Source: Hymenobacter baengnokdamensis
Lineage (GTDB): Bacteria > Bacteroidota > Bacteroidia > Cytophagales > Hymenobacteraceae
Direction of reading: 5' to 3'
Assembly: GCF_008728635.1 (NCBI RefSeq)
Contig: NZ_CP044285.1
Location: 1,426,001 to 1,490,000, forward strand
DNA length: 64,000 nt
The notes under the pieces are model-generated. The model saw only the letters and a list, made by a program, of their open reading frames with translations, was not told the DNA's origin and did no database searches. Below are positions 1,720 to 52,771 of this stretch, one piece after another. The translations under genes were made by a program, and so were the position numbers. The first letter of the stretch is position 1. Each line of letters begins with the position of its first letter.

Positions 1720-1983
1720 CTGCTTTTAGCGGGCTGGGCAGCTTGTGGCAACGAAGTTTTGCCCGAGGCTACGCTAAGTGCCTGAAAGCTGGGTGAGAAA
1801 CTTTTGAAAGTTGCGCTGTTTGCTAGAGGCACTGTTGAATCCAGGGAGGTGAGTAGTGATAAGGTATAAGGTGTCGGCTGCGGGCTAGGCCTGGAGTAGC
1901 TTCGGGTAGGGCTATTAGTGAGGTGGTGCTAGGGAATGAGTGGGTTGTATAAATGCTGGCTGGGCGCCTACTTAGCCGGGGCC

Positions 1984-1991
1984 TACTTTTG
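1984..1991 (+). promoter_or_regulatory. Putative -7 element for the ABC ATPase gene
   Basis: TACTTTTG fits TAnnTTTG and lies about 70 nt upstream of the ATG at 2062. The -33 element is not clear. Confidence 0.35.
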
Positions 1992-2061
1992 GTGAGTAGG
2001 TAGGTTGCCAACGGTGGCAATTGAGTACGGAACAGGTGGTTTAGCATGGTAATTCTTTTAT

Positions 2062-3039: not shown

Positions 3040-3067
3040 ACAGGTGAAATTTAGCTGATAGGCTGGA

Positions 3068-4220: not shown

Positions 4221-4248
4221 TCAATAAATGCTTAGGAGTCCGAAATAA

Positions 4249-4289
4249 AATTGTCTGTCATGCTGACGAACCAAGCATGACAGACAATT
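4249..4289. terminator. 16-bp palindromic hairpin after the dehydrogenase gene
   Basis: AATTGTCTGTCATGCT at 4249-4264 is exactly complementary to 4274-4289, with a 9-nt loop. On the minus strand it lies just after the dehydrogenase stop and is followed by TTTTATTT, so it can act as a terminator. The word GTCTGTCA is shared with the larger inverted repeat at 18797-18921, suggesting it belongs to a dispersed family. Confidence 0.65.
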
Positions 4290-4304
4290 AAAAATCAAGC
4301 AAAA

Positions 4305-5546
4305 CTACACCAGCTGCCGCAGGGCCATCTCGAATGAGCGCTGGGCGATGCCGGTAGTTTCGGCGCTTTGCTGGCGGGTGCGGGCCAGGGCGGCTTCGAT
4401 GATGCGCGAGGTATCAGAGAAAATGGCCTGGTCTGTGATTTCGGCGCCCGTTTCCATGAGGTAGGCAAACACGCGGGCCATACCACAGTTGGCGATGAAG
4501 TCGGGGATGACGGCGCAGTGCGCGTCGGCCCACTCGCCGGTGGGGCCGAAGAAGATGGCCGGGTCGGCAAAGGGAACATTAGCTCCGCACGATATTACTT
4601 CGAGGCCGGCGCTCACCAGGGCCTCGACCTGCGCCTGCGTCACGAGGCGCGAGGCAGCGGCCGGCACGAAAATCTCGGCCCCGGTGGTCCAGACTTTCTG
4701 GTTTATTTCCTCAAAAGAAAGCAAGTCGGGCGCGTGCAGCGCGTTGCCGTCGCGGCCCAGAAACAGCGTCCGCACCTCTTCCAGACTCAGCCCTGCGGGG
4801 CGCAGCAGGCCGCCGGCCCGGTCGATGATGCCCACAATGCGCGCGCCCTGACTGGCCAGGTAGTAGGCCGCCGCCGCGCCCACATTGCCCCAGCCCTGGA
4901 TAATAACGCGCTTGCCCGCCACTGAGCGCCCGCCCCAGAGGGTATAGTAATGACGGACTGCTTCAGCCACGCCGTAGCCGGTGATAAGGTCGGCCACGGT
5001 GTACTTGCGGGCCAGGCTGGGCGTGTAGGTAGCGTCTTCGAGCACCTTGACTACGCCCTGGCGCAGCTGGCCGAGCTTCTGAATTTTCTGGGGCTCGGTG
5101 GCACGGTAGTGGCCATTTACTACACCCTCCTGCGGGTGCCAGAGGCCGTAGTCTTCGGTAAGCGGAATTACTTCGTGAATCTCATCCACGTTGAGGTCGC
5201 CGCCGGTGCCGTAGTAGGCTTTCAGCAGCGGAATGACAGCTTTGTACCAGCGCTCCAGCACGCCGCGCTTGCGGGGGTCCTGCGGGTCGAAGTTGATGCC
5301 CGACTTGGCCCCGCCGATGGCCGGGCCGGAGACAGTAAACTTCACTTCCATCGTTTTGGCCAGGCTCTCGACCTCGCGCTTGTCGAGGCCCTTGCGCATG
5401 CGGGTGCCGCCGCCGGCCGCCCCGCCGCGCAGCGAGTTAATCACCACCCAGCCTTCGGCTTCCGTTTCGGGGTCCTGCCACTCAAAAACGATTTCGGGGC
5501 GTTTCTGCTCGAATTGAGCGAGTAAATCTTTCATGTAATCAGGCAC
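4305..5546 (-). CDS. Glu/Leu/Phe/Val family amino acid dehydrogenase
   Basis: A 413-residue NAD(P)-dependent dehydrogenase that interconverts an amino acid and its 2-oxo acid with ammonia. GGAAGGGTRMRKG and GPAIGGAKSGI, with the catalytic-site Lys, are in the N-terminal domain; IIQGWGNVGAAAA (about residues 212-224) is the Rossmann nucleotide-binding loop. Length fits the family. An alternative ATG 12 nt downstream (MKDLL) is equally plausible. It follows hmgA and hppD on the same strand, so a role in aromatic amino acid use is possible, but specificity cannot be read from sequence alone. A strong hairpin between it and hmgA suggests separate transcription. Confidence 0.9.
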   Translation of the reverse strand: MPDYMKDLLAQFEQKRPEIVFEWQDPETEAEGWVVINSLRGGAAGGGTRMRKGLDKREVESLAKTMEVKFTVSGPAIGGAKSGINFDPQDPRKRGVLERWYKAVIPLLKAYYGTGGDLNVDEIHEVIPLTEDYGLWHPQEGVVNGHYRATEPQKIQKLGQLRQGVVKVLEDATYTPSLARKYTVADLITGYGVAEAVRHYYTLWGGRSVAGKRVIIQGWGNVGAAAAYYLASQGARIVGIIDRAGGLLRPAGLSLEEVRTLFLGRDGNALHAPDLLSFEEINQKVWTTGAEIFVPAAASRLVTQAQVEALVSAGLEVISCGANVPFADPAIFFGPTGEWADAHCAVIPDFIANCGMARVFAYLMETGAEITDQAIFSDTSRIIEAALARTRQQSAETTGIAQRSFEMALRQLV

Positions 5547-40320: not shown

Positions 40321-40462
40321 GACTTTAGCGCGAATTCTGGGTCAGTGTACGGGTTCTGTTCTTGCGTTCGCCTCACCCCCGGCCCCCTCTCCGAAAAGGA
40401 GAGGGGGAGCCAGGCTGGCAAAATGTGTATACTGACCCAGAATCCGCGCTAAAGTCTTACTT
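40315..40462. mobile_element. MITE-like element with 36-bp inverted arms
   Basis: The arms 40315-40350 and 40427-40462 are complementary with only 2 mismatches; each begins AAGTAAGACTTTAGCGCG on its own strand. The interior carries a perfect hairpin, CCCCCTCTCC/GGAGAGGGGG (around 40385-40407), of a REP-like type. The arms supply the final AAG-TAA (Lys-stop) of both flanking convergent genes. No transposase is encoded. I did not find clear target duplications. Confidence 0.7.
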
Positions 40463-40906
40463 CAGCCGCGCATCAAACGGGTGGAGCTCTATTGACACCA
40501 CTCGCAAATTCTGGTGCTCAGGATGCAATGGATTGAGCAGGTAGTTATGCTCGGCGGGCGACTGTGCTGAGGGCACGCGTAGGAGCCAGTATTTTCCTTC
40601 TTTAATCCACGCTTCGGTAATGGCAGCCAACTCAGGCGGATAGGGGAGGCTGTACCAGTCAGCAGGTAAGTCGGCGGCTTCAAGCAGCTTTATAGAGGCA
40701 GTAGCCGGTATTTCCAGCGTTAGCACCGAATAATCGACTGGCAATATGGGCGAATTGGCCAGCATCTCCAACTTAGCCAGCGACAGGTGTTCAGCAGTGT
40801 AGAGAATGGGTGTTCCCTGCCGGTGCCAACGGCCACTATGATAGAGTCCGCCCTGCCCGGTGGTATCTTGGATGTAAGGCTGCTTGCCGAAGCGATAGAG
40901 CTTCAT
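40457..40906 (-). CDS. RES-domain toxin
   Basis: A 149-residue protein starting MKLYRFGKQPYIQDTTGQGGLYHSGRWHRQGTPILYTAEHLSLAKLEML, which has the RES-domain order R-x-G, G-R-W and Y-x-A/S-x-x-x-x-L-A. RES toxins degrade or modify NAD+. An in-frame ATG at 40966 would add 20 non-family residues. Its upstream neighbour on the same strand is the cognate Xre/DUF2384-type antitoxin. Confidence 0.88.
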   Translation of the reverse strand: MKLYRFGKQPYIQDTTGQGGLYHSGRWHRQGTPILYTAEHLSLAKLEMLANSPILPVDYSVLTLEIPATASIKLLEAADLPADWYSLPYPPELAAITEAWIKEGKYWLLRVPSAQSPAEHNYLLNPLHPEHQNLRVVSIELHPFDARLK

Positions 40907-41003
40907 TGTAGGTATGGGTGCCAGGCAGGAAAAGGGTGTGTGGTGCTGGCTGATACTACAAAACAAAGCAGCGGTAGCCAGCTACTTCTTTGATAAAGCA
41001 TTA

Positions 41004-41459
41004 TCAAGAGAAAATTCCCCATTGAATCCGGCCCAGCACTTCCAGTACTTGTTCGCGGCCCAGCGCTGACGCTAGCAGTGCCTGCGGGCGTTCGCCACCC
41101 AGTGCTGGGTTTTCGAGCTGAAGCCAGCGGTGGAAGTCTGTTTCGTTCTCAAATACGGCGAGGCCTTTGGCTACTACGGCCGAAAGTTGGATGGCTTTCT
41201 CTGCCTCATCGCGGGTCAGAGTGCGGTGAGCTTGCTCGCGCCGGGCTAGGGTACTTTCTGAGATGGAAAGTGCTTCGCTCATTTCCCGGTTGGTAAAGCG
41301 CAGGTGCCGCTGCAAATGCCGCACTGCCGCCACGGGTACCCCAGCTACAGCGGCGCGCATCAAGTCGAGACTGTTGCGCACGGGCTGCGGCATCATCGAC
41401 GGGCCGCCGAGTAGGGTAACCATAGTGGCAGTAGTAGTTTGGAAAGGGATAGCAGTCAT
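41004..41459 (-). CDS. Xre/ParS-type antitoxin (DUF2384)
   Basis: A 151-residue protein with a helix-turn-helix region (LRFTNREMSEALSISESTLARREQAHRTLTRDEAEKAIQLSAVVAKGLAVF) and a C-terminal DUF2384 domain (DFHRWLQLENPALGGERPQALLASALGREQVLEVLGRI). This is the standard partner of RES toxins and presumably represses the operon. It precedes the toxin gene; the gap of 97 nt to the chosen toxin start is larger than usual. Confidence 0.88.
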   Translation of the reverse strand: MTAIPFQTTTATMVTLLGGPSMMPQPVRNSLDLMRAAVAGVPVAAVRHLQRHLRFTNREMSEALSISESTLARREQAHRTLTRDEAEKAIQLSAVVAKGLAVFENETDFHRWLQLENPALGGERPQALLASALGREQVLEVLGRIQWGIFS

Positions 41460-41815: not shown

Positions 41816-44191
41816 ATGCTCGTAATCAAACGCGATGGCCGCCGCGAGTCGGTCAAGTTCGACAAAGTCACCGCCCGTATTGAGAAGCTCTGCTACGGGC
41901 TGAATCAAAACTTCGTGTCGCCGATTGAAGTGGCTAAAAAGGTCATCGACGGCATCTACGACGGCGTGACGACCATCGAGCTGGACAACCTGGCGGCCGA
42001 GACCGCCGCCTCGCTCACGACCCGGCACCCGGACTACGCGATTCTGGCGGCGCGCATCGCGGTGAGCAACCTGCACAAGGTGACCTCGAAGTCGTTTTCG
42101 AGCACCATGAAGCGGCTGTATACCTACGAAGACCCCAAGAACGGCGACAACGCCTCGCTGATTGCCAAGGACGTGTGGGAGGTCATTCACAAGCACGCCC
42201 ACACCCTGGACTCGGCCATCATCTACGACCGCGACTACAACTACGACTTCTTCGGCTTTAAGACCCTGGAGCGCTCGTACCTGCTGCGCCTCGATGGCAA
42301 GGTGGTGGAGCGGCCCCAGCACATGCTGATGCGCGTGTCGGTGGGCATTCACAAGGACGATATTGAGTCGGCCATCAAGACCTACAATATGATGTCGGAG
42401 CGCTGGATGACCCACGCCACGCCGACCTTGTTCAACGCCGGCACGCCCAAGCCGCAGATGTCGTCGTGCTTCCTGCTCACGATGAAGGACGACTCAATTG
42501 AGGGCATTTACGACACCTTGAAGGACTGCGCCCTGATTTCGCAGTCGGCCGGCGGCATCGGGCTGGCCGTGCACAACGTGCGCGCCACGGGCTCCTACAT
42601 CAAAGGCACCAACGGCAACTCCAACGGCCTGGTGCCGATGCTGAAGGTCTTCAACGATACGGCCCGCTACGTGGACCAGGGCGGCGGCAAGCGCAAGGGC
42701 GCCTTCGCCATTTACCTGGAGCCCTGGCACGCCGACGTATTCGAGTTCCTGGACCTGAAAAAGAACCACGGCAAGGAGGAGATGCGCGCCCGCGACTTGT
42801 TTTACGCCCTCTGGACGCCCGACCTGTTCATGAAGCGCGTGGAGGCCAACGGCGACTGGACGCTGATGTGCCCCCACGAGTGCCCCGGCCTCGACACCAC
42901 CTGGGGCCCCGAGTTTGAGAAGCTCTACACCAAGTACGAGCGCGAGGGCCGCGGCCGCCGCACCATCAAGGCGCAGGAGCTGTGGTTTGCCATTCTGGAA
43001 AGCCAGACCGAGACGGGCACGCCCTACATGCTCTTCAAGGATGCCGCCAACGGCAAGAGCAACCAGCAGAACCTAGGCACGATTAAGTCGAGCAACCTCT
43101 GCACGGAAATAATGGAATATACTGATAAGGATGAGATTGCCGTGTGTAATCTCGCCTCGTTGGCATTGCCCCGCTATTTGGTGGAAGACAGCCATGGCAA
43201 CGTGACCTTCGACCACCACAAGCTGTTTGAGGTGACTTACCAGACCACGCTGAACCTGAACAAGGTAATCGACGTGAACTACTACCCGGTGCCCGAAACC
43301 GAGCGCTCCAACTTCCGCCACCGGCCCATCGGGCTGGGCGTGCAGGGCCTGGCCGATACGTTTATCGCCCTGCGCATGCCCTTCGAGAGCGACGAGGCCA
43401 AGGGCCTGAACACGGATATCTTCGAAACTATATATTTCGCGGCTATGACGGCTTCGAAGGACCTCGCCATCAAGGACGGGCACTACGAAACCTTCCCCGG
43501 CTCGCCGCTCAGCCAGGGCAAGTTCCAGTTCGACCTCTGGGGCGTGACGCCGCAGTCGGGCCGCTGGGACTGGGACACGCTGCGCGCCCAGGTAATGGAG
43601 CACGGCGTGCGCAACTCGCTGCTGGTGGCGCCCATGCCTACCGCCAGCACCGCCCAGATTCTGGGCAACAACGAGTCGTTTGAGCCCTACACCAGCAACA
43701 TCTACGTGCGGCGCGTGCTCAGCGGCGAGTTTATGGTGGTGAACAAGCACCTGCTGAAGGACCTGGTGAAGCTGGGCCTCTGGAACGAGCAGATGAAGCA
43801 GGACATCATCGCGGCCAATGGCTCGGTGCAGAACATCGCTAGGGTGCCCCAGCACATCAAAGACCTGTACAAGACGGTGTGGGAGATTTCGCAGCGCACC
43901 ATCATCGACATGGCCGCCGACCGGGGCGCCTACATCTGCCAGAGCCAGAGCCTGAACCTGCACGTGCAAAACGTGAACTTCGGCAAGCTCACCAGCATGC
44001 ACTTCCACAGCTGGAAGCGCGGCCTCAAAACCGGCATGTACTACCTGCGCACCAAAGCCGCCGCCGACGCCATCAAGTTCACGGTGGAAAAGCAAGCCGC
44101 CGAAACCCTGGAGCCCCTATACGCCCAGAACCAAAGCGACATGGCCTGCTCGCTAGATAACCCGGACGCCTGCGAGGCCTGCGGGTCGTAG
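41816..44191 (+). CDS. nrdA: Ribonucleotide reductase large (alpha) subunit, class Ia
   Basis: A 791-residue R1 protein. The N-terminal ATP-cone starts [22 protein letters not shown]; the catalytic barrel contains [87 protein letters not shown] and [38 protein letters not shown]. It ends [11 protein letters not shown] with the redox-active Cys pair. It makes deoxyribonucleotides together with NrdB. Confidence 0.97.
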
Positions 44192-44251: not shown

Positions 44252-45361
44252 ATGGAAGCAATTTTCACGGCGATTCTTGAATTAGGCCAGGTACGTCAAG
44301 TTCCACAGTTCTTGTTCCTAGATGGGGTGGACCATAGTAGCATGATGGATGTGCGCCGAGCGGTCATTGAGTTTAAAAGCTTTAATCCCTCGGTAAAAGA
44401 AATCGACTTTATCATTAACTCACCTGGTGGGTTAGCAGATGCTGCTTACCGCATAATTCGGACCTTGAGGAAGAATTTTGAAACGGTTAATATAGTCGTA
44501 CCATTTTGGGCTAAGAGCGCGGCTACATTGCTCTCGTTGGGTGGGACGAGAATCATTATGGACGAATTCGGCGAATTTGGTCCGCTGGATGCTCAACTTG
44601 CTAAGGAGCGCGATGATAGTCCAGAAATGCTGACTGAAAGTGCGTTAAACGATGAGCACTCGTTAAGCCGTATAGAAACGCGGTTTAAGAACCTGTTCGA
44701 AACTACCTATTTAAGGTTGTACGAACACAGCAAGATTAGAATTAATAAGATAGAGTTGGCCAAGCAACTCTTGCAAAATGCAAGTACTTTCTATCTGCCG
44801 CTGTTAAAGCAGATTGACCCGTATCGCCTTGGCGAAAAAAGGAGAATTCTTGATATTGGCGGTCAGTACGCTAAAAAGATTCTTGCCCAGTTCAGTCCTG
44901 GTATTACTCCAGAAAAAGCGTATCAACTGACCGACTATCTAGTCGATAGTTGCCCTGACCACGGCTATGTCATCGACTACGACATAATGAAGCTTTTGCT
45001 TCCTCAAGTGGTAGTTGCTTCCGAAGAACTAGGTCCTGACTACCGGGAGAAGCTTACAGAGCTGTCTAATCTGCTTATCGATATGGTATTTTCTGGTGAC
45101 AGGACAAGCTATGTTGGCTTTGTAGAAGCACCCGCTCAAGAGGAGGAACCTGTCGAAGCAGGGAGTGGGGAAGCTGAGGGAGGTGACAACATTTTGCCAG
45201 GGGAGTCGTTTGTAAACGAAAAATCTGTTAATATTGTCCCACCAATTGTCCCGCCACCAACTTCGCAAAGGAAGATAACTAAGGAGAAGAACCATGAAAA
45301 CCACGGCAAAACAGACAATCTTGAGCGAGCTGTTACTTCTCGACCCATCAGCGAAAATTAG
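44252..45361 (+). CDS. SDH-type ClpP-fold serine protease
   Basis: A 369-residue protein of the serine dehydrogenase proteinase (SDH_sah) type. IDFIINSPGGLADAAYRIIRTLRKNF gives the oxyanion Gly-Gly, VVPFWAKSAATLLSLGGTRIIMDEFGEFGPLDAQL the nucleophile Ser and surrounding helix, as in ClpP/SppA relatives. A helical middle part (about 130-300) and a low-complexity acidic/Pro-rich tail (EAPAQEEEPVEAGSGEAEGGD) follow. No membrane segment is seen. The gene is less GC-rich than nrdA, which suggests acquisition. A 57-codon gene overlaps its end. Confidence 0.82.
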   Translation: MEAIFTAILELGQVRQVPQFLFLDGVDHSSMMDVRRAVIEFKSFNPSVKEIDFIINSPGGLADAAYRIIRTLRKNFETVNIVVPFWAKSAATLLSLGGTRIIMDEFGEFGPLDAQLAKERDDSPEMLTESALNDEHSLSRIETRFKNLFETTYLRLYEHSKIRINKIELAKQLLQNASTFYLPLLKQIDPYRLGEKRRILDIGGQYAKKILAQFSPGITPEKAYQLTDYLVDSCPDHGYVIDYDIMKLLLPQVVVASEELGPDYREKLTELSNLLIDMVFSGDRTSYVGFVEAPAQEEEPVEAGSGEAEGGDNILPGESFVNEKSVNIVPPIVPPPTSQRKITKEKNHENHGKTDNLERAVTSRPISEN

Positions 45362-45467: not shown

Positions 45468-45491
45468 TATTTATCCAAGACTTGAATAATA

Positions 45492-45613
45492 GCATCCCCA
45501 GCCGCTGCCGCCCCCGGTAGCGGCTGACGTGTTTTCGGGGGCTCGCGGGCGGGGCGCACTTGGTACCTTAGCCGCCTGGAAACGCCGGCTTCGGCGGCGG
45601 GCTAGCGGGGCGG
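45492..45613 (+). repeat. Cassette repeat copy R1 (terminator plus promoter)
   Basis: A 122-bp unit. The first part is a hairpin (AGCCGCT at 45500-45506, AGCGGCT at 45519-45525) followed by GTGTTTTC, terminator-like. Then come GGCGCACTTGGTACCTTAG, a small hairpin CGCCGGCTTCGGCG and GGGCTAGCGGGGCGG, directly joined to the -7 element of the next gene. It differs from copy R3 at only four positions over about 121 bp. Confidence 0.88.
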
Positions 45614-45621
45614 TACATTTG
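45614..45621 (+). promoter_or_regulatory. -7 element abutting gene A1
   Basis: TACATTTG lies 3 nt before the ATG of A1; a leaderless mRNA is predicted. Confidence 0.6.
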
Positions 45622-45624
45622 TAT

Positions 45625-45909
45625 ATGTTTGAAAGCTACGAAGTCGATTTCGGCAAAGTCAACCTCAACTGGGCGCACAACGTCCGTATTGAGTTGGAGG
45701 AATTGAACGAGCTATTGGAATTATCAGCCCAAGCCTGGCTGTATATAAGCGAAGGCGGCGAGTATGAAATCACTGGCTACACGAAGCTGCATAAGTTCGT
45801 GACCGTTACCTTCACGCTGACCGAACACACTGTAGTAGTTGAATCCGTAAATCTCCCCAGCTATGGCCGAATTAGAGAAGTCGTCATTAATCAATTCCTC
45901 GCCGCTTAG
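45625..45909 (+). CDS. Cassette gene A1, unknown family
   Basis: A 94-residue acidic protein, MFESYEVDFGKVNLNWAHN... Its paralogue A2 at 47982 shares DFGK(V/L)NLNW, IEL-E, E(I/V)TGYT, KF and VNLPSY in the same order (roughly 45% identity by eye). Beta-type sequence predominates. The ATG at 45625 is supported by the conserved distance to the promoter and by identity of the first residues in both copies (MF). It does not match any toxin or antitoxin family I know. Gene B1 overlaps its end by 47 nt. Confidence 0.72.
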   Translation: MFESYEVDFGKVNLNWAHNVRIELEELNELLELSAQAWLYISEGGEYEITGYTKLHKFVTVTFTLTEHTVVVESVNLPSYGRIREVVINQFLAA

Positions 45910-46057
45910 GCCAGCTGATTACACTAGCCGAGGCGAGTTGGTAGAAGAAGCGGAGCGTCGGCACGTAAGCGGCCCCCTTACGCGGGAACAGTTTCTGGCA
46001 TTTTTGCTAAAAACTGGTAAGGTGCCACCCGGTACCGCACTAAAGCAAGCATCGTAA
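45863..46057 (+). CDS. Cassette gene B1, unknown family
   Basis: A 64-residue protein. Its C-terminal half RRHVSGPLTREQFLAFLLKTGKVPPGTALKQAS resembles the B2 protein (SGPLT, LFAYLKKMGKLPP, KQAS). It starts 238 nt after A1, in the +1 frame, exactly as B2 does relative to A2, inside the codons for LPSY. Expression by translational coupling to A1 is likely. Function unknown; a two-gene toxin-antitoxin or inhibitor arrangement is one possibility. Confidence 0.68.
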   Translation: MAELEKSSLINSSPLRPADYTSRGELVEEAERRHVSGPLTREQFLAFLLKTGKVPPGTALKQAS

Positions 46058-46064
46058 GTTTTCC

Positions 46065-46129
46065 CGGCCGCTGCCGCCCCCGGTAGCGGCTGCCGTGTTT
46101 TTGGAGGCTAGCGGGTGGGGCGAAACTTG
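46065..46129 (+). repeat. Cassette repeat copy R2 (5' part only)
   Basis: GGCCGCTGCCGCCCCCGGTAGCGGC, GTGTTTTTGG, GGCTAGCGGGTGGGGCG are preserved; the downstream GGTACCTTAG part is replaced by an unrelated promoter. The hairpin would end transcription of A1-B1. Confidence 0.8.
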
Positions 46130-46156
46130 TTTTCGTGGCCAGCCGTTCTATATTTG
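46127..46156 (+). promoter_or_regulatory. Promoter of the small RNA/Abi_2 unit
   Basis: TTG (46127-46129), 19 nt, then TATATTTG (46149-46156): a full Bacteroidota consensus promoter. The start of transcription is expected near 46161. Confidence 0.75.
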
Positions 46157-46160
46157 CAAC

Positions 46161-46220
46161 AACAAAACCCGCCACGCCTCTAGGTTTCACGACTTACGCG
46201 CACCAGGCGGGTTATTTTTT
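46161..46220 (+). ncRNA. Probable small structured RNA upstream of the Abi_2 gene
   Basis: AACCCGCC (46166-46173) pairs with GGCGGGTT (46206-46213), enclosing 32 nt, and TATTTTTT follows, a terminator-like end. The element begins right after a consensus promoter and ends 9 nt before the Abi_2 ATG. Abi_2-type genes in other bacteria have, as I recall, been reported with small RNAs upstream; I cannot check this. An alternative is an attenuator in the Abi_2 leader. Confidence 0.5.
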
Positions 46221-46228
46221 GCCCTTTT

Positions 46229-47137
46229 ATGAAGTATAGAAAGCCCGCGCTGACGCTAACTGACCAAGTGAGTCTGTTGGTAAGCCGAGGCTTGCAGATT
46301 GCCAATGTAGGCGCTGCCGAGCGGGAACTGGGACGTCTGAGCTACTATCGCTTAGCGGGGTACTTTCTTTACTTTCAAGGGGGTGCTGGGCACCAGTTTC
46401 GGGCAGGCACTACGCTGGAAGAAGTACTGGACCTTGACCATTTCGATGAGGCGTTGCGCCTTCTGCTCTTCAAGGGAATAGTGCCGATTGAAATTGCGCT
46501 ACGTGCGCAGCTGGCTTATCAGGGGGCACTGAAAGCGGGGCCGTTCTGGTACAAGGACCGGCAGTATACGCTAGGCCGGCGCGACCATAAGGGCCAGGAT
46601 ATTCACAACGGCAACATCCGGCACATTCGTAAGGAAGTGAAGCGCTCGGGCGAAACGTTTATTCAGCACTACTATCATACGTATTCGTCGCCCGCGCTTC
46701 CACCTGCCTGGATGGTGTTTGAGGTGGTTTCGTTCGGTACACTCTCAAAAGTGCTCAGTCATTTGCGCCCGGCTATTACCAACGATGTAGCTCGATTTTT
46801 TGGCGTGGGCCAGCCAGTATTGGTGAGTTGGATAACGGCTTTATGCAGCTTGCGTAATCGCTGCGCACACCACAGCCGCACCTGGAACCGTAAGCTGACT
46901 GTAAAGCCAGTGCTATCTATAAAGGCAGCAAACACTTGGCTAACTGCCGTTCCTCAGACGAATGCCAATCTGTATGGTCTGCTAGCATGTCTTGTTTACT
47001 TGTTGCGGGCAGTTGATGAGCAAAAGGGTACTGCTTTTATACAGGAAATGAAGGCACTATTCAGCACGTTTGCCTCCGTACCTGTGCAGGCAATGGGTTT
47101 TCCAGTGGGGTGGGAACAGGAAGCCTTGTGGCAGTAA
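46229..47137 (+). CDS. Abi_2-family (AbiD/AbiF-like) abortive infection protein
   Basis: A 302-residue protein. ALTLTDQVSLLVSRGLQIANVGAAERELGRLSYYRLAGYFLYF and FDEALRLLLFKGIVPIEIALRAQLAYQ match the Abi_2 N-terminal part; WMVFEVVSFGTLSKVLSHLRP and ALCSLRNRCAHHSRTWNRKL hold a RxxxxH-type HEPN RNase motif. Members abort phage infection, probably by cutting RNA. It occupies one unit of the repeat-flanked array, preceded by a probable small RNA. Confidence 0.88.
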   Translation: MKYRKPALTLTDQVSLLVSRGLQIANVGAAERELGRLSYYRLAGYFLYFQGGAGHQFRAGTTLEEVLDLDHFDEALRLLLFKGIVPIEIALRAQLAYQGALKAGPFWYKDRQYTLGRRDHKGQDIHNGNIRHIRKEVKRSGETFIQHYYHTYSSPALPPAWMVFEVVSFGTLSKVLSHLRPAITNDVARFFGVGQPVLVSWITALCSLRNRCAHHSRTWNRKLTVKPVLSIKAANTWLTAVPQTNANLYGLLACLVYLLRAVDEQKGTAFIQEMKALFSTFASVPVQAMGFPVGWEQEALWQ

Positions 47138-47143
47138 CACTAA

Positions 47144-47264
47144 GCATCCCCAGCCGCTGCCGCCCCCGGTAGCGGCTGCCGTGTTTTTGGGGCTAGCGGG
47201 CGGGGCGCACTTGGTACCTTAGCCGCCTGGAAACGCCGGCTTCGGCGGCGGGCTAGCGGGGCGG
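47144..47264 (+). repeat. Cassette repeat copy R3
   Basis: Full-length unit nearly identical to R1, including GCATCCCC at its left edge, the AGCCGCT/AGCGGCT hairpin, TTGGTACCTTAGCCGCC, CGCCGGCTTCGGCG and GGGCTAGCGGGGCGG. It lies between the Abi_2 stop and the DUF6883 gene. Confidence 0.88.
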
Positions 47265-47272
47265 TAGTTTTG
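47265..47272 (+). promoter_or_regulatory. -7 element abutting the DUF6883 gene
   Basis: TAGTTTTG lies 4 nt before the ATG at 47277, predicting a leaderless transcript. Confidence 0.6.
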
Positions 47273-47276
47273 CCGC

Positions 47277-47612
47277 ATGACGCTTCACGACAAGCCGCTA
47301 GTTGGGGCACCCAATAAGGTGCAGGATTACTTGCTGAATCCTGACCACCCGGTTGGCGGGGCCAAGGCGCGGTTCTTCCTAGGTATAGGGTATTCGCGGC
47401 AGCACTACGAGCAACTGATAGCCGACTTGGTAGCGCACGGCCACAGCGGTACCGTGACGGAGGAAAAAGCGTCGCCCTACGGCGTTAAGTTTGTGGTAGA
47501 TGGCCCGCTGCTAGCCCCCAACGGCCGAGAGTACCCCATCCGAACCGTGTGGATGGAACAATCACCGGGTATCCACGTTTTGCTAATCACCGCCCACTTA
47601 CTAGACCGCTGA
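47277..47612 (+). CDS. DUF6883-like protein
   Basis: A 111-residue protein: LVGAPNKVQDYLLNPDHPVGGAKARFFLGIGYSRQHYEQLIADLV and GVKFVVDGPLLAPNGREYPIRTVWM...GIHVLLITAHLL are typical of the DUF6883 family, also found as toxin-like C-terminal domains. The stop overlaps the next start (TGATG). Likely the effector half of a two-gene module, which is an inference. Confidence 0.8.
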   Translation: MTLHDKPLVGAPNKVQDYLLNPDHPVGGAKARFFLGIGYSRQHYEQLIADLVAHGHSGTVTEEKASPYGVKFVVDGPLLAPNGREYPIRTVWMEQSPGIHVLLITAHLLDR

Positions 47613-47830
47613 TGAAACCCTTCGTTGAACTAGACACTGTGCAGCTGCAAAAAGACCACCTCGAATGTGGATTGGCAGCGGGCGCGCTTGGTACAGTTGT
47701 GTTAGTGCATGCCCAAGGCGAGGCCTACGAAGTAGAGTTTATTGGCCTTGATGGGCACACGCAAGCTGTGCTAACTCTGCCCGCCGCTGAAGTGGCCGCC
47801 ATCGCGCAGCCGTGGCGGCAGGTTGCTTAA
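47612..47830 (+). CDS. DUF4926-like protein, probable partner of DUF6883
   Basis: A 72-residue protein: FVELDTVQLQKDHLECGLAAGALGTVVLVHAQGEAYEVEFIGLDGHTQAVLTLPAAEV, an SH3-like beta fold fitting DUF4926. DUF4926 and DUF6883 genes are often adjacent. The TGATG overlap indicates translational coupling. It may be the antitoxin-like half. Confidence 0.82.
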   Translation: MKPFVELDTVQLQKDHLECGLAAGALGTVVLVHAQGEAYEVEFIGLDGHTQAVLTLPAAEVAAIAQPWRQVA

Positions 47831-47853
47831 TCCGCATCTGAATTCTTAAGTTT

Positions 47854-47969
47854 CTCAGCCGCTGCCGCCCCCGGTAGCGGCTGCCGTGTTTTCGGGGCTC
47901 GCGGGCAAGGCGCACTTGGTAACTTAGCCGCATGGAAACTCCGGCTTCGGCGGTGGGCTAGTAGGATGG
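47854..47969 (+). repeat. Cassette repeat copy R4
   Basis: The unit is complete but more diverged: AGCCGCTGCCGCCCCCGGTAGCGGCT hairpin, GTGTTTTCGGGGCTCGCGGGC, GCGCACTTGGTAACTTAGCCGC, CCGGCTTCGGCGG and GGGCTAGTAGGATGG. It separates the DUF4926 gene from A2. Confidence 0.85.
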
Positions 47970-47977
47970 TAGCTTTG
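47970..47977 (+). promoter_or_regulatory. -7 element abutting gene A2
   Basis: TAGCTTTG lies 4 nt before the ATG of A2. Confidence 0.6.
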
Positions 47978-47981
47978 CGCT

Positions 47982-48272
47982 ATGTTCACGAACTACGATA
48001 TTGACTTTGGTAAGCTCAATTTGAATTGGCTACATAGCGTCAGTATTGAGCTAGATGAGATAACCAACCTGATAGAAGTATCGGAGCGTGCCCAAACGTA
48101 TCTACAGGCCAATGGGCAAATTGAGGTAACCGGCTACACGAACCGCCGCAAGTTTATTTCCGTTATTTTACCCATCACCGGGCAGCAGCTCGTTGTCGAT
48201 GACGTAAACCTCCCTAGTTATGAAACCATCCAAGACGTTATCCTCCGACGACTCGCCGAAGAAACCGAGTGA
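47982..48272 (+). CDS. Cassette gene A2, paralogue of A1
   Basis: A 96-residue protein, MFTNYDIDFGKLNLNWLHSVSIELDEITNLIEVSERAQ..., colinear with A1 and sharing the DFGK-NLNW, TGYT and VNLPSY motifs. It is preceded by the same repeat and promoter layout and followed by an overlapping B gene. The family is unknown; conservation of the start region and of length supports a real gene. Confidence 0.73.
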   Translation: MFTNYDIDFGKLNLNWLHSVSIELDEITNLIEVSERAQTYLQANGQIEVTGYTNRRKFISVILPITGQQLVVDDVNLPSYETIQDVILRRLAEETE

Positions 48273-48411
48273 GCTCTCGATGAATGGCAAAACCCCCGAA
48301 GAATGGGAAGCGGGCCGCATCAGCGGGCCGCTTACTAAACGCGAGCTATTTGCCTATTTGAAGAAGATGGGCAAATTGCCACCAACTGCCGAGTACAAGC
48401 AGGCTTCGTAG
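48220..48411 (+). CDS. Cassette gene B2, paralogue of B1
   Basis: A 63-residue protein ending RISGPLTKRELFAYLKKMGKLPPTAEYKQAS, similar to B1. It begins 238 nt after A2 in the +1 frame with a 53-nt overlap. An internal ATG at 48280, just after the A2 stop, is an alternative start, but B1 has no matching Met, so the longer form is favoured. Confidence 0.68.
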   Translation: MKPSKTLSSDDSPKKPSELSMNGKTPEEWEAGRISGPLTKRELFAYLKKMGKLPPTAEYKQAS

Positions 48412-48432
48412 CTTAATTATTGGTTGCCTCAC

Positions 48433-48508
48433 CAGCCGCTGCCGCCTCGGCAGCGGCTGGCGTGTTTTTGGGGGCTAGCGGGCCGGGCGCACTTTATACC
48501 TTAGTCGC
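48433..48508 (+). repeat. Cassette repeat copy R5 (5' two thirds)
   Basis: CAGCCGCTGCCGCCTCGGCAGCGGCTG hairpin, GTGTTTTTGGGGGCTAGCGGG and GCGCACTTTATACCTTAGTCGC are retained; the CCGGCTTCGGCGG hairpin and the start-abutting promoter are not. It lies before the metallo-hydrolase gene. Confidence 0.8.
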
Positions 48509-48549: not shown

Positions 48550-49272
48550 ATGAAACAGATTAGCAAGCAGCTCTACCAAATCAGCCTGGGCGCATCCAAT
48601 GCCTTTGTAATCGAAGACAAGGACTTGACACTGGTCGATACCGGCGTGCCGGGCAGCACCGAGAAGCTGTTTGCGGCTATCCGCAAGGGAGGTAAAAATC
48701 CGGACGCCATCAAGCAGATTATTCTTACGCACTGGCACCCCGACCATGCCGGCAGCGCGGCCGACCTAAAACAGCGCCTGGGGGCCCGCGTGTATGCACA
48801 CGCCGATGAGGCAGCCGCCCTGGAGCAAGGAGGAGCCGAGCGGCCCCGCTACCTGACCCCAGGCGTAAGGAATTGGCTGATTTTTAACATCTTTATTAAG
48901 AAAGTGGCGCGGGCAATTCCTGCCGTGAAAATAGACGAGCGGGTGGCTGACAACGACGTGATTCCGGTGGCGGGCGGCGTGCGCGTCATTCATACGCCGG
49001 GGCACAGCGCGGGGCACATCGCCTTGCTGCTGGAGCAGGATGGGGTGCTGATTGCCGGGGATATCTGCGCCAATATGTCGGGGCTGGCCTACAGCACCGT
49101 GTACGAGGATATGGCGCTGGGCCGGCAGAGCATTTTGAAAGCTGCCGGGTTTTCGTTTGACCAAGCCGTTTTTGGGCACGGCAGCCCCGTGACCAAGCAG
49201 GCCAATGCGAAGCTGAAAGAGAAGTTTCAACAGCCCAACCCCTTTGCGGGGAAGCCGCTGAAGCCTGTTTAA
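48550..49272 (+). CDS. Metallo-beta-lactamase-fold hydrolase
   Basis: A 240-residue protein. HWHPDH at residues 61-66 is the HxHxDH metal-binding motif; VIHTPGHSAGHIALLLEQDGVLIAGDICAN and QAVFGHGSPV supply the other ligands. Substrate unknown; glyoxalase II-like and lactonase-like enzymes are possible. Its base composition is like the core genome. Confidence 0.88.
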   Translation: MKQISKQLYQISLGASNAFVIEDKDLTLVDTGVPGSTEKLFAAIRKGGKNPDAIKQIILTHWHPDHAGSAADLKQRLGARVYAHADEAAALEQGGAERPRYLTPGVRNWLIFNIFIKKVARAIPAVKIDERVADNDVIPVAGGVRVIHTPGHSAGHIALLLEQDGVLIAGDICANMSGLAYSTVYEDMALGRQSILKAAGFSFDQAVFGHGSPVTKQANAKLKEKFQQPNPFAGKPLKPV

Positions 49273-49299
49273 GCCATACCACAACAGCGAGCTGCGGCT

Positions 49300-49457
49300 A
49301 GCCGTTGCTATGTCTGGTAGCGGCTGGAGTGTTTGCATGGGAGTAGGAGAGTGGGGTAAGTACTAGCAAGCACCAGCCTTGGCCGCCTACCCACGCAGTA
49401 GCTGTGGCGCCTGGTTTAGCGCCCCGATGGCATGGGGCAGAGCCCCGCGCCATCGGG
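49300..49457 (+). repeat. Degenerate repeat copy R6 and a second hairpin
   Basis: AGCCG...GGTAGCGGCTGGAGTGTTTG at 49300-49335 is a diverged relic of the repeat hairpin. Further on, CCCGATGGC (49423-49431) pairs with GCCATCGGG (49449-49457), with an inner GGGGC/GCCCC stem. The 235-bp gap has no gene. Confidence 0.5.
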
Positions 49458-49507: not shown

Positions 49508-50092
49508 ATGCACCCGTTGCTTGCTTACCTGCGCCGCTTCGTGCCCACCCTCACCGAGGCCGAGTGGCAACTGCTAGCCGGGGCCGTGCGCCCGGCCCAC
49601 GTGGCGCGGGGCCAGCACTTTGTGCAGGCCGGCAACTACCGGCCCGAAATAGCCCTGCTGCTCCAGGGCTCTTGTCGGCTGTACTACCTGCGCCCGAGTG
49701 GCGAGGAGCGCACCACCTATTTCTTCTTCGAAAACCACCTGCTGGCCGACTACCTGAGCTGCCTGCTGGGCCAGCCGAGCCAGCTCAACATTCAGGCCCT
49801 GACCGATACGGACCTGGTGGTGTTCGATTACGCGGTGCTGCGGCAGCTCTACGACGAGTGCCCGGCCTACGAGCGGTTTGGCCGGGTGCTGGCCGAGTAC
49901 CACCTGCTGGGCACCGATGCCCGCCTCACCGAGCAGCTGATACTCTCGCCCGAGGAGCGCTACCGGGCGCTGCTGGCCAGCGGCAAAACCAAGATTCTGG
50001 AGCGCATTCCGCAGCACCTGGTGGCCAATTACCTCGGCGTCACGCCCGTGTCGCTGAGCCGCATTCGGGCGCGGGTGGCGCGGGGGCGCTAG
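49508..50092 (+). CDS. Crp/Fnr-family transcriptional regulator
   Basis: A 194-residue regulator with a cyclic-nucleotide-binding-like beta-barrel (residues 20-110; FVQAGNYRPEIALLLQGSCRLYYLRPSGEERTTYFFFENH) and a C-terminal helix-turn-helix (LERIPQHLVANYLGVTPVSLSRIRARV). The ligand is unknown. TAGTTTTG at 49490-49497 lies 10 nt before the ATG. Confidence 0.88.
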   Translation: MHPLLAYLRRFVPTLTEAEWQLLAGAVRPAHVARGQHFVQAGNYRPEIALLLQGSCRLYYLRPSGEERTTYFFFENHLLADYLSCLLGQPSQLNIQALTDTDLVVFDYAVLRQLYDECPAYERFGRVLAEYHLLGTDARLTEQLILSPEERYRALLASGKTKILERIPQHLVANYLGVTPVSLSRIRARVARGR

Positions 50093-50130
50093 GGGTGGGG
50101 CGCTGGATTTTCTTAGCTTTTGTTATCGTC

Positions 50131-50158
50131 GGGGGGCTAGCGAGGGGCGGAATTTTGG
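50131..50158 (+). repeat. Tail fragment of the cassette repeat
   Basis: GGGGCTAGCGAGGGGCGGAATTTTG resembles the 3' end of R1/R3 (GGGCTAGCGGGGCGGTAGTTTTG). It lies upstream of the DUF4260 gene and may retain the promoter. Confidence 0.5.
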
Positions 50159-50196
50159 GTATTGATTTTCACCATCCAATTCCCCCGATTACTCCC

Positions 50197-50607
50197 ATGA
50201 AATCGCTGCTGAAACTTGAAGAGCTGGCCGAAATGCTGCTGGCCGGGTTTGTGTTCGCCCACCTGCCCGTTGCCTGGTGGGTGCTGCCCGCCACTTTTCT
50301 GCTGCCCGACCTGAGCATGCTGGGCTACCTGGCCGGCCCGCGGGTGGGCGCCGCCAGCTACAACCTGGTGCATCACAAGGCCACGGCAATAGCCGTAGGC
50401 GTAGCGGGGTGGCTGCTGGGGCTGCCCCTACTGGTGCTGGCCGGCACGGTGCTGCTGTTTCACAGCGCCTTCGACCGGCTGCTGGGCTACGGCCTCAAAT
50501 ACGCCACCGCTTTCCAGGATACGCACCTGGGCCGGGTGGGCAAAGCGCCCGCCGCGACTAGCCCAGCCGCATCGGCCCTACATTTGGGCTATGCAGACGC
50601 TCACTAG
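50197..50607 (+). CDS. DUF4260 family membrane protein
   Basis: A 136-residue protein: MKSLLKLEELAEMLLAGFVFAHLPVAWWVLPATFLLPDLSMLGYLAGPRVGAASYNLVHHKATAIAVGVAGWLLG, with three to four hydrophobic segments, matches DUF4260. A long open frame continues upstream through the Crp gene but in a non-coding phase, so ATG 50197 is used. Its end overlaps the AraC gene start by 17 nt. Confidence 0.83.
   Translation: MKSLLKLEELAEMLLAGFVFAHLPVAWWVLPATFLLPDLSMLGYLAGPRVGAASYNLVHHKATAIAVGVAGWLLGLPLLVLAGTVLLFHSAFDRLLGYGLKYATAFQDTHLGRVGKAPAATSPAASALHLGYADAH
50579..50586 (+). promoter_or_regulatory. -7 element abutting the AraC-type gene
   Basis: TACATTTG inside the end of the DUF4260 gene lies 4 nt before the AraC ATG, again predicting a leaderless mRNA. 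Confidence 0.55.
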
Positions 50608-51481
50608 CCGGCCGCCGATACCTATATACCCGTTTGAGCCAGACGAGCTAAGCGGGAGCAGCTGCTTCTCCCTCGTGCGCTCGGAAGGTGAGCTGCCCTA
50701 CGAGGCCGACGTGCTGCTGCCGCACCGCAAGGCCTACTATATGCTGGTATTTACGAAGCGTACGCGCGGCCGGCACTGGGTCGATGCCGTGCCCTACGTG
50801 CGCCAGGACCACGCGCTGTACTTTTCGAGTCCCAGCCAGCTGCTGGTGAAGGAGGAGCCGACGCCCTTCTGGGGCACCCGGCTCCAGTTCACGAAGGAGT
50901 TTTTGGCCTTGCAGCAAAACGCGGCCCTGCGCAGCCTGCCACTCATCCAGAACCCGCACCACGGACACGAATTGCGCCTGCCCGCGGCCGATGAAGCCGT
51001 GGTAGACGACCTGCTGCTGAAGCTCGAAGCCGAGTACCAGCGCCCCGGCGAGTGGCAGCACCAGCTGCTGAGCGCCTACCTGCTGGTGCTGCTCACCTAC
51101 CTGAGCCGGCTGTACACGGAGCAGTTTCCGGGCGGCGAGCCCTCGGCCGACCAGCGGCTGCTAAAAGCTTACCAGGCCCATATCGAGGAAAATTTCCGCG
51201 AACTGCACGAGGTGGGTGCCTACGCCGAGCTGCTGCACATTTCGGCGGGGCACCTGAGCGAGGTGGTGAAGGCCCAGAGCGGGAAGTCGGCCATCAAGCA
51301 CCTGCACGAGCGCCTGGTGCTGGAAGCCAAGCGCCTGCTGTTTTACACGCCGCAGTCGCTCAAAGAGCTGGCCTTCGACCTGGGCTTTTCGGATGCCTCG
51401 TACTTCAACCGCTTTTTCAAGCGCGAAACCGGCCAGACGCCGGCCGAGTACCGGGTCAGCATCCGCAAAATGTACCAGTAG
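50591..51481 (+). CDS. AraC-family transcriptional regulator
   Basis: A 296-residue regulator: N-terminal cupin-like sensing domain (about 1-170) and a C-terminal double helix-turn-helix (LLKAYQAHIEENFRELHEVGAYAELLHISAGHLSEVVKAQSGKSAIKHLHERLVLEAKRLLFYTPQSLKELAFDLGFSDASYFNRFFKRETGQTPAEYR). The following SDR gene on the same strand may be a target. Confidence 0.92.
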   Translation: MQTLTSRPPIPIYPFEPDELSGSSCFSLVRSEGELPYEADVLLPHRKAYYMLVFTKRTRGRHWVDAVPYVRQDHALYFSSPSQLLVKEEPTPFWGTRLQFTKEFLALQQNAALRSLPLIQNPHHGHELRLPAADEAVVDDLLLKLEAEYQRPGEWQHQLLSAYLLVLLTYLSRLYTEQFPGGEPSADQRLLKAYQAHIEENFRELHEVGAYAELLHISAGHLSEVVKAQSGKSAIKHLHERLVLEAKRLLFYTPQSLKELAFDLGFSDASYFNRFFKRETGQTPAEYRVSIRKMYQ

Positions 51482-51557
51482 TACCGCGAAATGGGTGCCA
51501 GCCGCGCCGCCAGGGTAGGGTAATTTTGTGCTGTTAATTATTTGACTAACAGCAACC

Positions 51558-52295
51558 ATGAAAACCGCTCTCATTACCGGCGCCAACAAAAGCATCGGCT
51601 TCGAAGCCGCCCGGCAGCTCCTCCAGCAAGGCTACTATGTGTACTTGGGCAGCCGCGACACCCACAACGGCCAGCAGGCCGTCGACCAGCTCAAGGCCGA
51701 AGGTCTCACCCAGGTCGAGCCCATCCAACTCGACGTAACGAGCAGCGACTCCATTGCCGCTGCCCGCGCGGCCCTGGGCCAGAAAACGCCGGTGCTCGAC
51801 GTGCTCATCAACAATGCCGGCATTTTGGGCGGCATGGTGCAGCCGGCTTCGAGCACCAGCCTCAGCACCATCCGGGAGGTGTTTGACACCAACGTATTTG
51901 GGGTAATCGGGGTGACGCAGGCGTTTCTCGACCTGCTGCGGCAGTCGCCCGCGCCGCGCATCGTCAACGTCACATCGGGCCTGGGCTCGCTCACGCTGCA
52001 CACCAACCCGAGCTGGAAATACTACCCGGTGAAGGGTGCCGCCTACCAGCCCTCCAAGGCTGCCCTGAACGCCTACACCATCATGCTGGCCTACGAGCTG
52101 CGCGATACCCCGTTCAAGGTGAATGCCGTGGATCCCGGCTATACCGCCACCGATTTCAACCACCACAGCGGCCCCGGCAGCGTGCAGGCCGCCGCCGCCC
52201 GCTTGGTAAAAGCCGCCACGCTGGGCCCCGATGGGCCCACCAGCCAGTTTTTCAGCGACGATAACGCGCCGGAAACAGGCATTAGCCCCTGGTAG
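51558..52295 (+). CDS. Short-chain dehydrogenase/reductase
   Basis: A 245-residue classical SDR. MKTALITGANKSIGFEAARQLL has the TGxxxGIG cofactor loop, VLINNAGIL the NNAG motif, IVNVTSGLGSL the catalytic Ser and AAYQPSKAAL the YxxxK pair. The substrate is unknown. A -7 element, TAATTTTG, is at 51520-51527 and allows a leader of about 25 nt. Confidence 0.92.
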   Translation: MKTALITGANKSIGFEAARQLLQQGYYVYLGSRDTHNGQQAVDQLKAEGLTQVEPIQLDVTSSDSIAAARAALGQKTPVLDVLINNAGILGGMVQPASSTSLSTIREVFDTNVFGVIGVTQAFLDLLRQSPAPRIVNVTSGLGSLTLHTNPSWKYYPVKGAAYQPSKAALNAYTIMLAYELRDTPFKVNAVDPGYTATDFNHHSGPGSVQAAAARLVKAATLGPDGPTSQFFSDDNAPETGISPW

Positions 52296-52320
52296 CCAGG
52301 GCGGCGAATCGCACTAAAAA

Positions 52321-52389
52321 CCCAGCCGCTGCCGCCCCCGGTAGCGGCTGGCGGGTTTTGGGGCTGGCGGGTAGGGCGCACTCAGTACC
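52321..52389 (+). repeat. Cassette repeat copy R7 (5' part)
   Basis: CAGCCGCTGCCGCCCCCGGTAGCGGCTG hairpin, GGGTTTTGGGGCTGGCGGGTAGGGCGCACTCAGTACC. It lies after the SDR gene, 4 kb beyond the main array, and probably acts as the SDR terminator. Confidence 0.8.
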
Positions 52390-52771
52390 GGGAGAAGCAC
52401 TCGTTGCAGCCGCTCGTTTGAAGTATTACCCCAGATAAGCTACAGTACCTGGGGCGACGAGTCAAAGCGGTCGAGCAAGCGCAGCAGGTCGGCACCTTTG
52501 GTGAGTATGGCGATGCCAGCCTGCCCGGCCGCTTTATTTGTCTGCTGCCGCGGGCCAGTCCTGCGTGCGCGACGAATTTCTGGCTGAAAGCTCCGCTACT
52601 CATGCCGGTGCTTACCGACATAGTCAGCCACCGGGCTGGTGGAAATAAGCTGATTGGCTGGATTAGATACCTGGGTGCTTGGCTAATTTTGTGCTGGCCC
52701 GCAGGCCGGGTAACTGGGTCGACCGCATCAAGTCCCATCTTTGATGAAGGAAACCCGTATACGGATACCAT
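52390..52771. other. Region without a supported gene, possible relic
   Basis: On the plus strand a frame without an ATG reads QYLGRRVKAVEQAQQVGTFG, GDASLPGRFICLLPRASPAC and LIGWIRYLGAWLILCWPAG, which looks protein-like but matches no family I know and has no proper start. A 129-codon minus-strand frame over the same bases has Cys/Ser/Arg-rich antisense-like composition. A decayed gene is possible. Confidence 0.35.

Follow-up and report, generated by a model that had tools for sequence, protein, structure and literature searches.

Downstream of nrdA, the gene for the large subunit of ribonucleotide reductase, the chromosome of Hymenobacter baengnokdamensis carries an array of small gene modules separated by copies of one direct repeat. 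The array lies in a 64-kb window of contig NZ_CP044285.1, the stretch of DNA analysed here, whose coordinates are used throughout; the genome (handle G000) is complete at 4.43 Mb. We regard it as almost certain that this is a real chromosomal cassette-like array, occupying one fixed place 3' of nrdA in the genus Hymenobacter. A cassette would here be one small module flanked by the direct repeat; its cargo would be either a toxin-antitoxin (TA) or defence pair or else accessory genes, from one to a few in number. The comparisons reveal directly that the repeat is confined to this locus and kept in direct orientation, that modules have exchanged neighbours, that blocks of shared sequence have their borders at repeats and that the end of nrdA has been duplicated.

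Five copies of the repeat, R1 to R5, had been described in an earlier sequence-only reading of this DNA, and all five lie where it placed them. The array is larger, with seven copies spanning 45.49-52.39 kb, six strong and one degenerate, each opened by a hairpin; since two further copies lie beyond R5, it reaches ~52.39 kb and takes in the hydrolase and the module of Crp, AraC and short-chain dehydrogenase (SDR) genes (Table 1). A covariance model finds the strong plus-strand copies at 45496, 46062, 47148, 47853, 48430 and 52320 with 57-65 bits and the weak copy at 49296 with 34 bits. Of the 97 copies used to build the model, 94 come from relatives and three from the window (45496, 48430 and 49296), so that these three match by construction. 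Its minus-strand matches in the window overlap or adjoin the seven plus-strand copies.

Restriction of the repeat to the nrdA locus

When R3 (126 bp) is used as query at E ≤ 0.001, all six matches in its own genome fall in the array. The five other than R3 itself have E-values of 9e-50 to 2.5e-17, so that a chance origin of the copies is excluded. With R1 as query and E ≤ 0.1, six more short matches (18-29 nt) appear elsewhere in the same genome. At E ≤ 0.001 the R3 search gave matches in 12 of 39 genomes, all Hymenobacter, and in none of the 14 from other genera.

The covariance model has matches in 112 of 120 Hymenobacter genomes, nrdA being identified in 116. Its best matches were listed, 150 in all, and 140 of these are downstream of nrdA, on its strand and no more than 20 kb away; the window's own genome has nine model matches, six of them among those listed and all six in the array. 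The remaining ten listed matches comprise eight from genomes in which nrdA is missing, fragmentary or at a contig end (two each in G116 and G112, one each in G117, G114, G011 and G065) and two from G024. The 3' end of nrdA was found just upstream of the G117 match and of both G112 matches, bringing the listed total to 143 of 150. Searching for the exact core in one genome per species, over 84,980 species, returned 21 stretches, each of which carries the label Hymenobacter or Hymenobacteraceae. Thirteen of the 21 also include nrdA within a stretch of no more than 8 kb, every time upstream and on the same strand. A repeat dispersed genome-wide is ruled out by its confinement to the array in the window's genome and its restriction to the nrdA locus in the genus.

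Regions downstream of nrdA were fetched from 72 of the 116 nrdA-positive genomes, selected mainly by NrdA similarity. Iterated nhmmer searches (E < 1e-3) found 168 copies in 48 of the 72 regions, 167 of them on the nrdA (plus) strand; the lone minus-strand match is an effect of the palindrome, since it overlaps a plus-strand copy. Full-length copies number 46, hairpin halves 99 and second halves alone three, the others being intermediate, and 37 regions contain two or more usable copies. The median distance from one copy to the next is 707 nt (115 intervals). No gene was called in 19 of the 115 intervals by our home-made caller, which may miss small genes (as it did B1 and B2 in the window), and hairpins in tandem, at a spacing of 75-80 nt, are present in G054, G072, G113 and G023. 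Among the 35 of 72 regions with fewer than two copies, a test that sees stretches with at least two partners detected another kind of repeat in G001 only. There (L014, 1551-4666 relative to nrdA) a different intergenic direct repeat around CTGGCGCGAGTTTAGCGCAGCGTAACT is present in several copies downstream of nrdA.

Reshuffling between species

Module maps of the relatives show content and order to vary between species. In the sister genome G005, whose NrdA is 98% identical, AbiD precedes A, the reverse of the order in the window. Measured from the nrdA stop codon, the swapped blocks are G000 1300-1931 with G005 2615-3244 (92.1% over 632 bp) and G000 1873-3081 with G005 1537-2743 (96.4% over 1209 bp), and both terminate in repeats. 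A comparable picture is seen in G113, which is 98.9% identical to G072 from nrdA up to and including its second repeat and diverges beyond, its right part matching G044 at 96.2%. The sequence-only reading had proposed that modules could be gained, lost or shuffled as in a cassette array without an integrase, and the restriction to one locus, the variable modules and the swap between sister genomes support it well.

Alignment borders were assessed over 1152 blocks from 42 genomes that have two or more copies. Interior block starts fall within -20 to +120 of a repeat in 66% of 585 cases versus 11% at random, and interior block ends at +20 to +60 in 37% of 496 versus 3% at random; since similar repeats attract alignment ends, these borders show that repeats delimit blocks, not where crossovers took place.

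A duplicated nrdA end

A feature new relative to the sequence-only reading is the duplication of the nrdA 3' end. An extra copy of its last ~35-40 codons (~100-130 bp) occurs in 16 of the 117 genomes with a match, twice in G024, giving 17 copies. Sixteen of these are downstream of nrdA on its strand, fifteen within ~2 kb, and one is at a second locus in G024. All 17 finish at the stop codon. Their left edges vary over query positions 9-35, with eight of the 17 at positions 21-24, around CGGTGGAAAAGC, so that the recurrent edge of the duplication is at codon ~755-756.

Eleven of the extra ends were aligned base by base. In nine, one module occupies the space from nrdA to the extra end, six times a HicAB-like pair and three times an A-type module (with B called in two of the three). 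The other two are G071, with a DUF3800 gene and ~950 nt containing a weak hairpin match, and G024, with several modules. Because the extra ends bracket one inserted module in nine genomes, the 3' end of nrdA looks like the entry point of modules. The bracketing is the structure that insertion of DNA carrying a copy of the nrdA end would leave. Campbell-type homologous insertion over ~110 bp and site-specific insertion yield the identical structure; the recurrent edge favours either site-specific insertion or common descent of the cassettes. Modules are found in both settings, A adjoining nrdA in six genomes and following hairpin repeats in nine (G102 has both), and the HicA-like gene adjoining nrdA in six and following a hairpin repeat in one.

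The second G024 locus (L104, C160:138000-156000) contains a ~40-codon fragment of the nrdA 3' end, then hairpin repeats, an inverted DUF433/DUF5615 module and c9. It is as if the nrdA end and its array had been copied elsewhere.

Hairpin and carried gene start

R1 and R3 are set apart by three substitutions and a one-base gap across their shared ~121 bp, in agreement with the four differing positions counted in the sequence-only reading, and their identity continues 9 nt to the left of the AGCCGC stem; R3 and R4 are 89% identical. The terminator-like hairpin noted at the start of each copy folds well, 54-56-nt stretches giving -21.9 to -33.8 kcal/mol (z -1.4 to -4.0). A stable GC hairpin followed by a T tract is what characterises an intrinsic terminator, and TGTTTT or similar is present in most aligned copies. 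The first ~57 nt, hairpin plus T-rich stretch, probably insulate modules as a terminator. This hairpin does not simply serve the upstream gene as its terminator, since the repeat keeps the nrdA-strand orientation even where that gene is on the minus strand (20 of 163 cases).

Covariation was assessed in an alignment of 97 of 155 copies, thinned by similarity. Of its cells 88.4% are paired, and changes on both sides of a pair were seen in 25 cells versus 16.7 in shuffles (1 of 500 as high). Counted by pairs, six have such changes versus 4.7 in shuffles (125 of 500 as high), and the outer stem is nearly invariant. RNAalifold on the 97-copy alignment predicts just six pairs at -3.83 kcal/mol.

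A different kind of sequence makes up the second half. In G005, G102, G106, G084 and G046 the full repeat leads into a gene of the antitoxin-type DUF433 family, the order being hairpin, G-rich stretch, TATCTTAG-like element, start codon and first codons. Before A, DUF6883 and AbiD modules the same leader and ~7-15 DUF433 codons are followed by module-specific sequence, so that unrelated modules have ~114 nt in common, dead gene start included. Among the window's copies, R4 still has ATG as its relic start codon; R1 and R3 have CTG at that point. A relic motif is present in 9/10 full repeats before A, 6/6 before DUF6883 and 1/1 before AbiD, with a total of 23/45; as it is found in just 5/19 repeats before DUF433 itself and 0/4 before Crp, the motif undercounts and the rule is not universal. 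Since DUF433 leader and codons persist before unrelated modules, the second half is, judged by its sequence, a transported DUF433 leader and gene start rather than a purpose-built promoter.

The motif TAnnTTTG, which had been thought to stand directly against the next start codon in full copies, does so in R1, R3 and R4; it also precedes the abiF-like RNA after R2 and is missing from R5. As a general rule the claim fails: 26 of 115 first genes have the motif no more than 60 nt from their start, compared with 9 of 51 second genes and 0.9% of shuffles. Where individual cases were read, it falls outside the shared repeat, in module-specific sequence, and TAGCTTTG recurs several times a few bases 5' of the module ATG after the DUF433 relic.

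Module cargo and layout

Pfam matches of cluster representatives include TA, immunity and defence types (DUF433/DUF5615, DUF6883/DUF4926, Abi_2, Imm-NTF2-2, SUKH-3 and DUF3800). A HicA-like protein scores 18.7 bits against a cut-off of 27, and its partner, without a Pfam match, is read as HicB-like. Other cargo comprises a cNMP-binding regulator, AraC, short-chain dehydrogenase, CrtO (CrtO-like), L-PSP, DUF4260, DUF5694, DUF4440, DUF4386, HAD, alcohol dehydrogenase and Y1 transposase, and several products have no match. The defence or TA character ascribed to the cargo therefore holds for many modules, alongside which stand the Crp, AraC, SDR, CrtO-like and L-PSP genes. Among ten window proteins submitted to PADLOC, AbiD alone gave a strong match.

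A and B form an orphan overlapping gene pair, present twice in the window (45625-46057 and 47982-48411), for which Pfam gives no match. A homology search with A2 in 5.8 billion proteins yielded 22 homologues, and both of those with organism names are Hymenobacter. The pair is a candidate genus-specific toxin-antitoxin system.

Inverted DUF433/DUF5615 modules are seen in several arrays (e.g. L009:10887-11383), the flanking repeats holding their direction. Upstream of the array, two minus-strand genes lie between nrdB and nrdA (40457-41459), which we take to resemble a RES-type toxin and a DNA-binding antitoxin; among relatives whose fetched locus includes the nrdB-nrdA interval, several carry other genes there.

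Table 1. Features of the nrdA-downstream array in the window (64 kb, NZ_CP044285.1).
Feature	Position	Strand	Evidence
nrdA, ribonucleotide reductase large subunit; fixed left border of the array	41816..44191	+	ORF; gene name presumed
ClpP/SDH-type serine protease-like gene, between nrdA and R1	44252..45361	+	Pfam SDH_protease 5.7e-14
R1, full repeat; hairpin 45500-45525	45491..45616	+	Alignment, model match
DUF433 gene-start relic within R1; CTG replaces ATG of intact relatives	45576..45598	+	Comparison with intact DUF433 leaders
TACATTTG, taken to be a -7-like promoter element, 3 nt 5' of A1 start codon	45614..45621	+	Sequence
A1, orphan small protein, cluster c5	45625..45909	+	No Pfam match
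B1, partner overlapping A1; by eye like members of cluster c14	45863..46057	+	ORF
R2, hairpin half only, right side truncated	46065..46121	+	Alignment, model match
abiF-like RNA, sub-gathering match	46168..46212	+	Rfam RF03085 29.8 bits (gathering 37), E 0.025
AbiD / Abi_2 protein	46229..47137	+	Pfam 3.4e-50; PADLOC AbiD 1.2e-65
R3, full repeat; DUF433-start relic (CTG) 47227-47249; TAGTTTTG 47265-47272	47143..47268	+	
DUF6883 protein	47277..47612	+	Pfam 1.3e-21
DUF4926 protein	47612..47830	+	Pfam 6e-18
R4, full repeat; DUF433-start relic (ATG retained) 47932-47954; TAGCTTTG 47970-47977	47856..47977	+	
A2, second copy of A family	47982..48272	+	ORF, clustering
B2, partner overlapping A2	48220..48411	+	ORF
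R5, hairpin and part of leader, right side truncated	48433..48508	+	Alignment, model match
Metallo-beta-lactamase-fold hydrolase	48550..49272	+	Pfam Lactamase_B 4.9e-29
Sixth repeat copy, degenerate	49296..49359	+	34 bits
Larger module: cNMP-binding (Crp-like) regulator, DUF4260-type open reading frame (ORF), AraC-type regulator, short-chain dehydrogenase	49508..52295	+	cNMP_binding and adh_short from window proteins; AraC and DUF4260 from Pfam of cluster relatives only
Seventh repeat copy, right end of the array	52320..52390	+	61 bits

Mechanism

We lean towards general recombination as the force that drives the array. Repeats of 50-120 bp suffice for homologous recombination, which we rank first for this reason and because no recombinase was found in cis; it would require no special enzyme and would fit the hairpin repeats best. 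Recombination between direct hairpin repeats would insert, delete and reorder modules, and recombination between nrdA 3' ends, on circular or transferred DNA, may do so too. The hairpin would terminate transcription, so insulating the modules, and TA modules may help to retain the array.

Several points weigh against this reading, the limit on the block borders given above among them. One array, the second in G024, lies away from nrdA and accounts for two of the 150 listed model matches. Among the 72 regions, copies were found in 4 of the 23 with NrdA identities of 91% or less (G103 and G089, in this group, carry arrays nonetheless). No extra nrdA end was found in the window's own genome. The repeat does not in general supply each module with a promoter, as the sequence-only reading had it, given the position of the motif and the nature of the second half. 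Rank correlations between module and nrdA identity, over 32 genomes with full nrdA, are low for TA types (DUF6883 0.08, A 0.01, AbiD -0.24, DUF5615 0.24, DUF433 0.21) and higher for DUF4926, Crp and AraC, which follow nrdA better (0.58, 0.58 and 0.52); since the clusters mix subfamilies, these values give no firm conclusion on module transfer. Finally, among the genomes compared, one per species, no excision, circle or same-species polymorphism was seen, and the changes described lie between species.

At the nrdA end, the recurrent edge at codon ~755-756 would allow for a site-specific recombinase that acts in trans. Such an enzyme, of the tyrosine or serine type and encoded elsewhere, might insert small non-autonomous cassettes at nrdA codons ~755-760 (CGGTGGAAAAGC), regenerating the gene end, and may use the hairpin repeats as well. 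The clustering of eight of the 17 left edges at query positions 21-24, for unrelated modules, speaks for such an enzyme, as does the presence in all 120 genomes of proteins with some integrase-profile match. Yet the edge varies among copies (shared cassette ancestry would, for its part, yield the same edge) and the nearest of the eight Phage_integrase matches in the window's genome is ~227 kb from the array. All 120 genomes, like all 14 control genomes, have weaker tyrosine-recombinase matches. A single-pass phmmer search with two IntI-like queries, themselves serving as positive control, found no relative among 6307 ORFs of 80 regions, a search that is weak for distant recombinases and did not extend to serine recombinases. 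We consider the trans-acting enzyme unlikely.

A broader view would be that of an integron-like platform of a new class in Bacteroidota, which we offer tentatively, as possible but on the doubtful side. The nrdA 3' end would be the insertion site and the terminator-leader repeat the cassette border; TA or defence cassettes of ~0.5-1 kb would be inserted with regeneration of the gene end, and later be separated by hairpins and shuffled by trans-acting or RecA-dependent recombination.

The simplest alternative is that ordinary terminators of the nrdA region have been multiplied by tandem gene duplication and gene conversion, with no cassette behaviour at all. The repeat does start a median of 26 nt past the upstream plus-strand stop codon (105 cases). 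Hairpins of the form AGCCGCT...AGCGGCT, but with different loops, exist elsewhere in the genus, G000 having 13, five of them inside the array. Against this, the extended sequence is confined to the array in that genome at E ≤ 0.001, unrelated modules share the same ~114 nt with its dead gene start, the plus orientation is kept beside the 20 of 163 upstream genes on the minus strand, and sister genomes differ in module order. Together these make the explanation quite improbable.

Implications

Cassette arrays are usually equated with integrons. If the present interpretation is true, genus-wide shuffling of TA and defence modules without integron machinery would show that the same architecture can be reached in a second way. 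There would also be a natural set of small insertions at nrdA with readable borders, and a pool of two-gene modules such as A/B that could be tested as toxin-antitoxin pairs. A literature search, limited to titles and abstract openings of open-access papers, found no description of this array. The literature retrieved for nrdA together with attB led to a paper concerned with NrdB on an integrative and conjugative element (PMC3826726).

Comparison with known systems

Single-orientation hairpin repeats among small, often TA-type cassettes beside a fixed left border could suggest that the hairpins are attC sites of a degenerate integron or of a cluster of attC sites lacking an integrase (CALIN). 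The R boxes of attC take the form RYYYAAC ... GTTRRRY. No copy among 155 has both RYYYAAC left and GTTRRRY right of the hairpin (singly, they occur in one and 13), and the cut-off of the integron integrase profile TIGR02249 is exceeded in none of 120 genomes, the 14 control genomes also having none and so providing no positive control. An Rfam scan of 44-50 kb at E ≤ 1, in which no attC model was run, found the abiF RNA only. With attC boxes missing and no integrase over the cut-off, the integron or CALIN reading is disfavoured and very improbable. The likeness to integrons and CALINs is real in other respects: small modules at one place, a hairpin direct repeat per module, a fixed left border, many TA or defence modules and an order that varies between species. 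The differences, apart from the lack of attC boxes and integrase, are that the Hymenobacter repeat is conserved in sequence, that some of its modules have promoter-like motifs and that the nrdA end is duplicated at the border. Bacteroidetes had been reported to yield only In0, with one complete integron named, that of Salinibacter ruber (PMC9024848).

Repetitive extragenic palindromic (REP) elements and their associated tyrosine transposases (RAYT) also invite comparison, in that GC-rich hairpin repeats are involved and some Hymenobacter arrays contain a RAYT-like gene. The idea that the hairpins are REPs mobilised by the IS200-like transposase of some arrays (cluster c38) draws on five genomes (G044, G113, G045, G074 and G094) whose array has a Y1 transposase gene (PF01797) inside or close to it, and on a Y1 match somewhere in 83 of 120 genomes, but it is the least credible of all and is disfavoured, since the repeats beside the c38 gene in G044 and G113, the two genomes whose flanks were read, are palindromic ones of a different kind, no Y1 match at E ≤ 0.001 exists in the repeat-bearing G014, G056, G075, G083 and G081 (the last with one copy), and the array repeat is limited to one locus rather than dispersed, its full matches in the window's genome at E ≤ 0.001 all being in the array. 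In G044 (3866-4719) and G113 (3486-4339; both relative to nrdA, L037 and L036) the IS200-like gene lies between ~150-bp palindrome-rich direct repeats. By eye, a palindrome related to these flanks (GCATGGGGCAGAGCCCCGCGCCATC) is present in the window near 49430.

The abiF-like RNA 5' of the Abi_2 gene in the window resembles the arrangement in AbiF systems (PMC12373285), where the Clostridioides difficile AbiF protein and its abiF-motif RNA are reported to act like an RNA-antitoxin pair. Here it would be one exchangeable module among many, and the RNA scores below the Rfam gathering threshold.

Another instructive parallel is with staphylococcal cassette chromosome (SCC) elements, which together with pseudo-SCC elements occur in tandem at the 3' end of rlmH. 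Both systems share insertion at the 3' end of a housekeeping gene, duplication of that end and tandem elements, and an extra gene end, as a regenerated end beside a displaced one would leave, was found in the 16 of 117 genomes described above, though not in the window's genome. The Hymenobacter array differs in that its bracketed modules are mostly ~0.5-1 kb rather than tens of kb, in that no recombinase gene was recognised within it and in the extra hairpin repeats that stand between its modules.

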